Assembly (NCBI RefSeq): GCF_023638035.1
Contig: NZ_JAKRVX010000001.1
Location: 558,001-622,000, forward strand
Reading direction: 5' to 3'
Source of the DNA: Natronocalculus amylovorans
GTDB taxonomy: Archaea > Halobacteriota > Halobacteria > Halobacteriales > Haloferacaceae
DNA: 64,000 nt
Part shown: piece by piece, positions 1 to 26,509 of the stretch
How positions within the stretch are numbered: the first letter of the stretch is position 1
Layout of the letters: each line of letters opens with the position of its first letter
Translations under genes and position numbers: made by a program
Notes under the pieces: model-generated
What the model saw: only the letters and a program-made list of their open reading frames with translations
Told to the model about the DNA's origin: nothing
The model's database searches: none

Positions 1-158
1 ACGGAAAGTTCCAAGCCCGTGGTGGGTTCCAGGAATTCACGAAAGAGATCGAAGCAGTAAACGAAAACGTTGCAAAAGAGCACGTGCTTTCGCAGATCGG
101 AAGTGAGCACGGTCTCAAACGAACCCAGATCGAAATAACGGGTGTGTCCGCAGCATGA
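1..158 (+). CDS. rplX: 50S ribosomal protein L18a (LX), 3' part
   Basis: This is the last 51 codons of a reading frame that enters from the left edge and stops at TGA 156-158. The peptide has the L18Ae/LX pattern GRFQARxGxQ-like (seen here as GKFQARGGFQEF) and ends HGLKRTQIEITGVSAA, which fits the roughly 58-residue haloarchaeal protein, so only a few N-terminal residues are missing. It is a small protein of the large ribosomal subunit. Its stop codon overlaps the start of the prefoldin gene. The order rplX-pfdA-ftsY is a conserved archaeal arrangement and supports the call. Confidence 0.9.
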   Translation, partial: GKFQARGGFQEFTKEIEAVNENVAKEHVLSQIGSEHGLKRTQIEITGVSAA

Positions 159-619
159 TGGGTGGCGGTGGTCAACAGCAGCTTCAACAGTTGTCCCAAG
201 AGCTGCAAGCGATCGACGCCGAAATCGAAGAATTGCAAACAGATATTGAGGGCCTCCGTACCGAGCAGTCGGAGATCGACGAGGCAGTCGAAGCGATCAA
301 CACCCTCGAAAGCGGCTCAACCGTGCAGGTGCCGCTTGGCGGTGGCGCATACGTCCGCGCAGAAGTCGATGACATTGACGAGATTGTCGTGAGCCTCGGT
401 GGCGGCTACGCTGCAGAGCAGGCCCAAGGTGGTGCGATCGAAACGCTCCATCGGAAACAGGATGCGCTGGACGATCGGATCGCAGATGTTGAATCCGAGA
501 TTGACGAGCTCGAGCAGGAGAGCGCACAGATCGAACAGCAGGCCCAACAGATGCAACAGCAGATGCAGCAACAGCAGATGCAGCAGATGCAACAGCTACA
601 GGAAGACCAGGACGAGTAA
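155..619 (+). CDS. pfdA: Prefoldin subunit alpha
   Basis: This 154-residue protein has the prefoldin alpha layout: an N-terminal coiled coil (residues about 5-50), a central beta-hairpin section around VQVPLGGGAYVRAEV, and a C-terminal coiled coil. Prefoldin is a cytosolic hexameric chaperone that captures unfolded proteins and hands them to the thermosome. The C-terminus is unusually rich in Met and Gln. Two ATG codons are adjacent at 155 and 158; the first overlaps the rplX stop codon, which indicates translational coupling. ftsY begins 3 bases after the stop. Confidence 0.92.
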   Translation: MMGGGGQQQLQQLSQELQAIDAEIEELQTDIEGLRTEQSEIDEAVEAINTLESGSTVQVPLGGGAYVRAEVDDIDEIVVSLGGGYAAEQAQGGAIETLHRKQDALDDRIADVESEIDELEQESAQIEQQAQQMQQQMQQQQMQQMQQLQEDQDE

Positions 620-24423: not shown

Positions 24424-24651
24424 CTAATTGATATATGCCGGTGAGTCGTCCGCTGCACTATCGACACCCGACGAGACTGCTGGTGAATCGGATGCATCAG
24501 CGATTGGGACTCGATGAACCGGTGTAATGTACGATACACGGAGGTATCCCGGTTTGGTGCTTGGCTCAACGGTAACGTCGCGTGCGTGGTCTGGAACTGT
24601 AATACGCTGCCCGGCGTGTTTAAGTTCGGAAATACGTGTGTACTCTTTCAT
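24424..24651 (-). CDS. Small hypothetical protein
   Basis: I do not recognise this 75-residue protein. It begins MKEYTRISELKHAGQRIT, continues with a beta-rich section VTVEPSTKPGYLRVSYI, and ends in an acidic low-complexity tail (SSGVDSAADDSPAY). The frame extends 7 codons upstream to 24672. It has haloarchaea-like composition and lies downstream of the Q-rich/Hsp20 pair on the same strand, past the inverted-repeat region. A TATA-like AATATACAA on the minus strand lies near 24733. Confidence 0.5.
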   Translation of the reverse strand: MKEYTRISELKHAGQRITVPDHARDVTVEPSTKPGYLRVSYITPVHRVPIADASDSPAVSSGVDSAADDSPAYIN

Positions 24652-24780
24652 ATCTTTACAGTTACCCATCACAGCATGATGCCCGTGTGATAGTGTAACT
24701 TTGACCTACTACACAATGAGTGACCGGTTGTATATTACCTTTTCCTAGAGGGATAAAATGGGTGTGTCGCGGTGGATGCT

Positions 24781-24866
24781 GAGCCGATCGCCCCAAACTG
24801 TACTGACTCAGACAGAGTTGCTTTGTTGATGGTGTCCAGTCATCAACGAAGTGGGGCGATCGGCTC
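24781..24866. repeat. Nested inverted-repeat element (15-bp arms, two inner hairpins)
   Basis: GAGCCGATCGCCCCA (24781-24795) and its exact inverse (24852-24866) flank 56 bases that fold into two further hairpins: AACTGT with ACAG-AG-TT, and CTTTGTTGATG with CATCAACGAAG (11 bp with one G-U, nine-base loop). The result would be a three-way junction as RNA or a cruciform as DNA. A GATAAAAT element 24-30 bases upstream on the plus strand could be a TATA box. No target-site duplication is seen, so a MITE is possible but unproven. Confidence 0.7.
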
Positions 24867-24934: not shown

Positions 24935-24962
24935 GGCTTCGAGTGCGTGTCTATTCGAAGCC
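24935..24962 (-). terminator. Hairpin overlapping the hsp20 stop codon
   Basis: GGCTTCGA (24935-24942) and TCGAAGCC (24955-24962) form an 8-bp stem with a 12-base loop containing the hsp20 stop codon. It lacks a T-run and may be an mRNA 3' end structure rather than a true terminator. Confidence 0.4.
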
Positions 24963-25556
24963 TATTGTTCGTCGATTGCTTGACTCGGCTTTTTGGATTC
25001 GGATTCGACAGACACCATCTGCGTGCTTTGCACTGGCATCTTCTCCTGTCGCCCCTAGTGGGAGCTGCACAAGACGCTCCATGCGTATTGGGCGTTCCTG
25101 TTGAATGAGTTGGTGGCTCTCATCCAATTTGAGATCGCGCTCTGCAGTGATAATCAGCGTCTGATCATCAGTTTGGAGCGTGATATCATCGGTGTCGAAT
25201 CCAGGAAGATCGACATAGATGAACAGCTCGTCTTCTGTTTCAGTGATGTCGATCGCTGGCTGCTGTGGTAGTGCAGCGTACTGTTGCTCTTGGACCGTGT
25301 GGTCGCTCATCTGGGGTTGTGCAGGTGATGCGGTTGTGACACCCTGTTGAGTAGTACCCTGTGTAGGGGGTGGAGCAGTAGCGGTACCGATTGCAGCTGA
25401 AAGCGGGTTGACTCCTTGTTGTGCTTGTTGTGCTTGTGGTTGTATCCCAGTTTGTGATTCGACAGCTGGTGGTGCCGATCCACGCGGACCGACAATTGGC
25501 TGGGTATACTGTGACTGTTGGCCGGTCGGATGCTGTGGATATCGTGGATCGTTCAT
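24951..25556 (-). CDS. Hsp20/alpha-crystallin protein with Q-rich N-terminal arm
   Basis: The 201-residue protein has a disordered N-terminal arm of about 100 residues rich in Gln, Pro, Thr and Ala, then an alpha-crystallin domain: IDITETEDELFIYVDLPGFD, DDITLQTDDQTLIITAERD, and MERLVQLPLGA with DGVCRIRIQKA. It is an ATP-independent holdase by family. Ordinary haloarchaeal Hsp20 proteins have short acidic arms. Its ATG is 11 bases after the stop of the Q-repeat protein, so they form an operon, and the shared Gln/Pro composition suggests the two proteins interact. Confidence 0.88.
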   Translation of the reverse strand: MNDPRYPQHPTGQQSQYTQPIVGPRGSAPPAVESQTGIQPQAQQAQQGVNPLSAAIGTATAPPPTQGTTQQGVTTASPAQPQMSDHTVQEQQYAALPQQPAIDITETEDELFIYVDLPGFDTDDITLQTDDQTLIITAERDLKLDESHQLIQQERPIRMERLVQLPLGATGEDASAKHADGVCRIRIQKAESSNRRTIGFE

Positions 25557-25567
25557 TGTATCCTCAG

Positions 25568-26308
25568 TTACTGTCTGAACTGGAGTCCTTGACCGATCGG
25601 TTGGCTCCCATACGCTGCAAACTCACTTGCTTGGAGCTGTCCAGGCTGTTGTTGCTGTTGTTGCTGTGGAATCGGTTGGCTCTGGGTCACCTCCTGTGGC
25701 TGTTGGGATTGTGGCTGTGACTGTCCAAACTGCTGAGGCTGTGGCTGTTGCAGTCCGAGCTGCTGAGGTGACTGCTGTGGTTGCGTTTGCAGGCTCTGTG
25801 GCTGCTCAAACTGCTGGGCTCCCTGCTGTGGGTTCGGTTGCTGGGTTCTCTGCTGTGGAATCTGCTGCTGTTGCTGTGGGTTCTGTTGCTGTTGTTGTGG
25901 GATCTGCTGCTGTTGCTGTGGGATCTGCTGTTGTTGCTGTGGGTTCTGCTGCTGTGGGTTCTGCTGCTGTTGCTGTGGAATCTGCTGCTGTTGTTGTGGG
26001 ATCTGCTGCTGTTGCTGTGGAATCTGCTGTTGTTGTGGGATCTGCTGCTGTTGTTGTGGGATCTGCTGCTGTTGTTGTGGGATCTGCTGTTGTTGCTGTG
26101 GGTTCTGCTGCTGTTGCTGTGGAATCTGCTGCTGTTGCTGTGGAACCTGCTGTGGGAGCTGGCTTGAGAATTGCTGCGGTTGTGATTGTGCGATCGCACG
26201 TGGGTTCTGTTGTTGCAGAGGTGAAATCTGTGACTGTGGCTGTGTGGACTCCATTGTTTGCGGGCTGTTCGCTGGAACGTTCTGTTGTGGCTGTTGTGCA
26301 AATTGCAT
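25568..26308 (-). CDS. Glutamine/proline-repeat low-complexity protein
   Basis: I do not recognise a family. From the ATG at 26308 the protein has 246 residues, with a central array of about 17 units of the form IPQQQQQ or NPQQQQQ (some with fewer Gln). The flanks are also Gln-rich, and a distinct tail contains LQASEFAAYGSQPIGQG. I count only four acidic residues, extreme for a haloarchaeon. It has no signal peptide or membrane helix. The frame is open to a TTG at 26413 (with a GTG at 26365), close below a TATA-like element near 26448, so the start is uncertain. Consistent Gln coding with mixed CAA/CAG supports a real gene. Confidence 0.75.
   Translation of the reverse strand: MQFAQQPQQNVPANSPQTMESTQPQSQISPLQQQNPRAIAQSQPQQFSSQLPQQVPQQQQQIPQQQQQNPQQQQQIPQQQQQIPQQQQQIPQQQQIPQQQQQIPQQQQQIPQQQQQNPQQQNPQQQQQIPQQQQQIPQQQQQNPQQQQQIPQQRTQQPNPQQGAQQFEQPQSLQTQPQQSPQQLGLQQPQPQQFGQSQPQSQQPQEVTQSQPIPQQQQQQQPGQLQASEFAAYGSQPIGQGLQFRQ
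25847..26160. repeat. 21-bp tandem repeat array (codes IPQQQQQ units)
   Basis: The array has about 17 head-to-tail copies of a 15- to 21-base unit built from CAG/CAA with one Pro and one Ile or Asn codon on the minus strand. Unit lengths always differ by multiples of 3, so the frame is kept. It is a coding minisatellite prone to length change, not a CRISPR. Confidence 0.9.
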
Positions 26309-26509
26309 AGTTTGTGGGTCGGGGGTTGCCGCCGGTCCCTGGGTGCCTGGGGTGAGTGGCGGCACCTGATGCTTCCGGGGAGAAGGGAATAAAGCCGGAA
26401 TACTGTCGCACAAAACAGTTCAGAATTTCGACATGGTAAGGAGAGCTTAAATGGTGGATATGCGCTCCTGTTCGGGCTGTTTATCAGCACTCATACCATA
26501 GCTCGGTGC

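Follow-up and report, generated by a model that had tools for sequence, protein, structure and literature searches.

A conserved haloarchaeal gene set pairing a glutamine-rich protein with its own Hsp20 looks like an archaeal protein-deposit system

The proteins of haloarchaea are as a rule strongly acidic, and this acidity maintains their solubility in salt. Archaea have few strongly Gln-rich proteins. In a survey of low-complexity domains, the occupancy of Gln-rich ones is reported to be uniquely high in eukaryotes (PMC11132505). In the DNA of Natronocalculus amylovorans analyzed here (64,000 nucleotides, referred to as the window), a low-charge, Gln-rich repeat protein is encoded directly beside a small heat shock protein of the Hsp20 family. 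Is the repeat protein real, do the two proteins belong together, and what might they do in a halophile? An earlier reading made from the letters of the window (the sequence-only reading) had seen a two-gene operon and suggested that the chaperone binds and controls the repeat protein. A near-neutral Gln-rich protein with its own Hsp20 offers a small, genetically separable system for two questions: what low-charge disordered proteins do in a cytosol of high salt, and whether archaea evolved prion-like chaperone arms independently.

The repeat gene and the Hsp20 gene in the window

The Gln-rich gene occupies positions 25568–26308 on the minus strand and encodes 246 residues from an ATG; because the frame is open up to a TTG at 26413 (281 residues), its exact start is unproven. 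The 246-residue protein contains 128 Q, 36 P, 4 E, 0 D, 3 R, and 0 K (52% Gln and 15% Pro), in agreement with the four acidic residues counted previously. A 21-bp tandem repeat array of ∼14.8 copies (25851–26152, minus strand) codes for its IPQQQQQ/NPQQQQQ units, and no known domain was found in the protein with Pfam or NCBIfam. The window protein has no hydrophobic segment (maximum 19-residue Kyte-Doolittle mean, −0.15), and the same maximum is at most 1.03 in any of its relatives. As had been claimed, the Gln-rich protein appears to have neither a signal peptide nor a membrane helix.

A CAR repeat expansion might happen to be open and yet be non-functional. All frames of the array in the window are open owing to the repeat, so that openness alone proves nothing, and the length of the Gln-rich gene differs between sister genomes. 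The pattern of changes argues against such an accident. Among the 11 full 21-bp units, minority bases number 0, 3, and 10 at codon positions 1, 2, and 3, respectively, and all three at position 2 make the Ile/Asn switch. In three sister pairs from other genomes (L072/L073, L077/L079, and L103/L119), the Gln-rich gene showed no internal stop and no frameshift, differences were enriched at codon position 3, and 22 of 22 indels were multiples of three, a pattern partly explained by repeat units whose length is divisible by three. Internal stops were likewise absent from a more diverged fourth pair (L082/L083), which was left out of the indel count because its DNA alignment was poor. Moreover, every related locus has a Gln-rich homologue in the corresponding position, the loci span at least five families of the order, and non-repeat C-terminal helices are conserved in relatives. 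This conservation argues strongly against an accidental frame, which we regard as extremely improbable. Taken together, the codon pattern and the sister pairs indicate that the repeat frame is a real gene.

The Hsp20 gene (24951–25556, minus strand, 201 residues) follows after a gap of 11 bp (25557–25567), and the coordinates and spacing first assigned to these two adjacent minus-strand genes were correct. Within the gap, the sequence GAGG (25562–25565, minus strand) lies five bases ahead of the ATG and is a possible Shine-Dalgarno sequence for Hsp20. Residues 103–196 match PF00011 (E = 6e-12; 46 bits versus a cut-off of 20.8). Residues 1–99 (25260–25556, minus strand) form the Gln/Pro-rich N-terminal arm that had been described, with 22 Q and 15 P. 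In a single-sequence structure model, the arm has low confidence and no secondary structure; composition and model agree, and both fit a disordered arm.

Solved archaeal small heat shock proteins match the Hsp20 profile, and the window Hsp20 has the same domain as the archaeal Hsp14/Hsp20-type proteins Hsp16.5 and StHsp14.0. Unlike those proteins, it has a Gln-rich arm and a paired Gln-rich gene, it falls under the curated cut-off of 100 of the NCBIfam Hsp14 equivalog model (NF041799; 75.6 bits, 3e-21), and it carries a Cys in place of the usual Leu. This residue, Cys183 (codon 25008–25010, minus strand), gives “GVC” for the usual “GVL” and is invariant in this Hsp20 subfamily; the residue at its position is Leu in 37 of the 46 other Hsp20 domains examined. 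A genome-contig scan with P0002 gave only distant, generic Hsp20s.

Pairing in related genomes

When the Hsp20 was compared by tblastn with 60 relatives, three genomes (G059, G015, and G031) scored far above all others, and each has a Gln-rich ORF directly upstream of the Hsp20 on the same strand. With a profile of the subfamily (A1), 17 strong members were recovered from 392 genomes of the order, along with weaker ones on both sides of a generic Hsp20 background of ∼103 bits; the weaker members L102–L106 likewise have a Gln-rich ORF upstream. The subfamily is present in 22 of the 392 genomes, and a 247-genome sample of the phylum added no other lineage (E ≤ 1e-29). This sparse distribution means that the unit is not a core stress system.

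To describe the pairing, genes in the extracted loci were called by a simple script. The loci contain 70 distinct Hsp20 domains, 24 of which carry “GVC.” All 24 have a Gln-rich partner, 22 of them lying just downstream of a Gln-rich ORF and 2 being fused to one; none of the 46 Hsp20s without “GVC” has a Gln-rich ORF upstream. Automatic scoring accounted for 20 of the 24 pairings. The remaining four comprise the fusions (L051/L074 and L117) and the loci L056 and L058, which end at a contig or segment edge and whose Gln-rich ORF was read in the larger loci L078 and L080. No p-value is given for these counts because the loci were sampled for their similarity and related genomes do not give independent counts. 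The association of the Gln-rich protein with the Hsp20 is nevertheless well supported by the genomes compared, and the linkage expected from the window is conserved. Of the outcomes that would have refuted the sequence-only reading, neither a loss of linkage nor frameshifted sister copies was seen. The only other Gln-rich ORF of more than 100 residues in these loci encodes a prefoldin subunit with a Gln/Met-rich C-terminal tail (QQQMQQQQMQQMQQ), at 155–619 (plus strand) of the window.

The coupling is often closer than adjacency. The two genes overlap by 4 bp in many loci of one genus (f12), e.g. L077 and L079. In G278, a single chain of 406 residues has Gln-rich repeats first and the Hsp20 domain after them, and a fused chain of up to 363 residues is encoded on a Salinirubellus plasmid (L117). 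Together with the coupling in every related locus found, these overlaps and fusions bear out the earlier view that the pair belongs together, and the gene arrangements show a unit that selection has held together, in two lineages as one chain. On the plasmid of Salinirubellus sp. SYNS196 (L117:7218–8309, plus strand), the fused Hsp20 is unannotated and an antisense ORF, WDJ58_RS24550, is annotated over it, probably in error.

Two further Hsp20s (L107 and L110) lack the Cys, and each has a Gln-rich arm of its own. In a tree, the Hsp20s of L107, L108, and L110 group with the “GVC” Hsp20s (support 97/94); the tree does not show a single origin for the Cys group alone. The Hsp20 of L108 (781–1977, plus strand), which belongs to this clade, bears a long low-complexity arm that is charged, consists of EPRREA repeats, and is not Gln-rich.

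We also compared what the partners keep. Their repeat units differ by lineage (IPQQQQQ, AAQQP, QQFQQPQQG, and GQQHQGG), and Pro falls to 1% in two lineages; a Gln-rich, low-charge composition is conserved, not a repeat sequence. The IPQQQQQ motif and proline, to which the sequence-only reading had pointed, are therefore not essential. A short conserved stretch, LLADTLARRxGLTSQQLAQVVPQL, closes several f12 partners, and the partners in Halobaculum and its relatives end in a domain of roughly 100 residues that is probably helical and for which Pfam gave scattered weak matches and no convincing one. No such conserved C-terminal domain was found in the window copy.

Types of the unit, third gene, and upstream element

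The unit occurs in two types. Type A, which includes a small third gene, is that of the window, G015, G059, G133/G195, the f12 genomes, and G298, and lies on large contigs of complete assemblies. Type B is that of Halobaculum and relatives; the named Halobaculum copies are plasmid-borne, beside an orc1/cdc6 gene, and their Gln-rich gene is annotated “hypothetical protein.” Where a C-terminal I-x-I/V-type motif is expected, the Hsp20 ends in I-G-F or similar in type A and in I-x-V/I in type B. On the Halobaculum plasmids L115, L116, L118, and L119, the pair always adjoins the orc1/cdc6 replication gene, and a peroxiredoxin or FAD/NAD(P)-dependent oxidoreductase gene lies near the pair, which may be plain plasmid synteny.

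In f12 genomes, the gene order is a divergent oxidoreductase gene, the Gln-rich gene, the Hsp20 gene, the small gene, and a DUF6149 gene. Sister species that lack the unit have the DUF6149 gene next to the oxidoreductase gene and none of the three genes between them, most clearly in L132. These alignments of gene order indicate that the unit is discrete, with clean empty sites in sister species; such sites, and the plasmid-borne copies in Halobaculum, provide natural controls.

The third protein (∼60–82 residues) was found downstream of the pair in G059, and its homologue was then located in the window at 24424–24651 (minus strand), where 75 residues from an ATG match the homologues and the frame is open to a GTG at 24672 (82 residues). 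A search of the 392 genomes of the order with this protein gave a match in 23, and the 15 stronger matches (window excluded) all lie beside a Gln-rich/Hsp20 pair or its fused form. The gene is present at most loci with the pair and absent from type B in the loci seen. The window copy has no Pfam match; one homologue gave an SH3 hint far under the cut-off (E = 0.06). A single-sequence model of the third protein consists mainly of beta strands, and a fold search with that model found nothing at E ≤ 0.001; a separate search for a solved relative also gave none. The operon as first described is thus confirmed for its two genes and incomplete in that it missed the third gene and a possible co-regulated secreted protein, described below.

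Between the Hsp20 gene and the third gene lies a strong hairpin (24781–24866, minus strand) with 14-bp perfect arms, a folding energy of −47 kcal/mol, and a z score of −4.8. It is a single copy in the genome, not a dispersed element, and matches no Rfam family. A smaller upstream inverted repeat has the same GAGCC, so that the two structures could be alternatives.

An upstream element, TGAACTATC-N7-TTTAT or a close variant, precedes the Gln-rich gene in most f12 loci as well as in G015 and G298, mostly about 50–70 nt ahead of the gene start. The f12 small gene has its own promoter-like motif, CGAAACnGTCTTAGTAG, ∼78 nt ahead of its start. When no more than one mismatch is allowed, the upstream element has one other recurrent target, a secreted DUF7282-type gene in four genomes of the f12 genus; in G061 and G090, the match before the DUF7282-type gene needs two mismatches. 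The DUF7282 assignment was confirmed by Pfam for the L147 copy and by visible similarity for the others. From these shared upstream sequences, the secreted DUF7282-type protein is a possible co-regulated partner. DUF7282-type genes were seen at L135, L144, L146, L147, L155, L162, and L041:11421–13520 (minus strand).

The recurrence of the element ahead of a secreted DUF7282 gene would suit a holding system, in which secreted or surface proteins would await export, held unfolded or stored by the pair, in cells making DUF7282 surface proteins. The same holds for G059, which has a DUF7282 gene two genes upstream of the Gln-rich one, and there is a yeast precedent in MitoStores, a chaperone-controlled storage of precursors (PMC10068336). 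Against it, searches of the window, type B, and the fusions did not turn up the element, and the pair in the window has no linked secretion gene. We consider a holding system improbable.

A proposed shared assembly and competing explanations

We give slightly less than an even chance to the proposal that a disordered, nearly uncharged Gln-rich scaffold and a dedicated Hsp20 with a disordered arm act as one cytosolic assembly. The low-charge Gln-rich chain would self-associate in the molar salt of the cytosol, the Hsp20 would join this assembly through its disordered arm, and the alpha-crystallin domain would bring in partly unfolded proteins or stop the assembly from hardening. The pair would then work like a split yeast Hsp42, and the small third protein may be an accessory or regulator of the assembly. 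Binding between the two proteins, the formation of a condensate or deposit, and a role in stress are what we infer for the pair. In favour of the assembly are the pairing in all “GVC” loci, the gene overlaps and the two fusions, the spread over at least five families, the kept composition, the clean empty sites, the intact frames in sister pairs, and the precedent of Hsp42. No stress-type promoter was shown in the window, which counts against the assembly, as do the sparse distribution of the unit and the absence of the small gene from type B. Gln makes up only 4–15% of the whole Hsp20 in many relatives; with the arm less Gln-rich there, the matching of arm and scaffold is not universal.

The main rival to the assembly is that the Gln-rich protein is the working product, as a cytosolic fibre, scaffold, or cytoskeletal element, and that the Hsp20 is its private assembly or solubility factor. 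This would account well for a pairing that is strictly one-to-one, for a gene order in which the Gln-rich gene comes first and often overlaps the next, and for the conserved helices that end several partners, a possible assembly domain. However, both proteins are fused in two lineages, and other clade members have a Gln-rich arm but no separate partner; a single functional unit explains this better than a client and its helper would. In addition, the repeats vary freely in sequence, as most fibre-forming repeats do not. A client with a private chaperone is, in our estimate, unlikely. The chaperone controlling its client, as first proposed, is only one option among others, and a shared assembly accounts for the fusions at least equally well.

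A more specific form of the shared assembly, which we put forward tentatively and at rather less than even odds, is a dedicated archaeal condensate or deposit system of a Gln-rich scaffold and a cognate small heat shock protein. It would be a convergent prion-like sequestrase operating in molar salt, with the parts of Hsp42 split between two proteins or, in two lineages, fused. The prion-like domain of Hsp42 is essential for its sequestrase function, and this N-terminal extension drives deposition of misfolded proteins (PMC6813348; PMC13287201). Hsp42 joins an alpha-crystallin domain and a long, prion-like, disordered N-terminal region as one functional unit; the haloarchaeal unit likewise combines an alpha-crystallin domain with a long disordered Gln-rich region in the same chain or unit, a likeness of composition only; the two natural fusions (L074 and L117; 406 and 363 residues) have the same layout. 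Unlike Hsp42, the low-complexity part is here mostly a separate protein encoded beside the Hsp20, the system is archaeal and halophilic, and the arms have no sequence relation. According to a review, phase separation by Hsp42 itself lacks direct evidence (PMC13287201), so that “deposit or condensate” is the safest wording. In a search of open-licence papers, we found no description of a Gln-rich haloarchaeal protein or of an Hsp20 pairing of this kind. The conserved gene set looks like an archaeal protein-deposit system that is undescribed in that literature.

Prolamins, such as wheat gliadins and glutenins, are repeat-built, low-charge chains rich in Gln and Pro or in Gln and Gly. Their likeness in make-up to Gln-rich, low-charge chains with a variable repeat unit raises the idea of a storage protein, a nitrogen reserve kept in bodies like those of seed prolamins, with the Hsp20 managing its packing. 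The gene is, however, small and single-copy, many relatives have conserved C-terminal helices, a fused form exists, and no linked nitrogen gene was seen. The window protein also differs from prolamins in being archaeal, apparently cytosolic, and paired with an Hsp20, and no homology between them was seen. A storage role is, in our view, very improbable.

Two haloarchaeal structures were considered and rejected as sites of action. The genome of the window has no polyhydroxyalkanoate (PHA) synthase (TIGR01836), and the synthase occurs in 6 of 22 genomes with the unit versus 11 of 29 without it, so that a role at PHA granules was dismissed. GvpH, an Hsp20-like protein of haloarchaeal gas vesicle clusters, resembles the Hsp20 described here in that it is haloarchaeal and its gene shares an operon with those of a dedicated structural system. 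In contrast to GvpH, the window genome has no gas vesicle gene (no PF00741 match), and the unit shows no association with such genes across genomes (again 6 of 22 with the unit versus 11 of 29 without). A further observation concerns the Hsp20 itself: Cys183 is invariant although haloarchaea are Cys-poor, and it may be part of a redox switch or a metal site.
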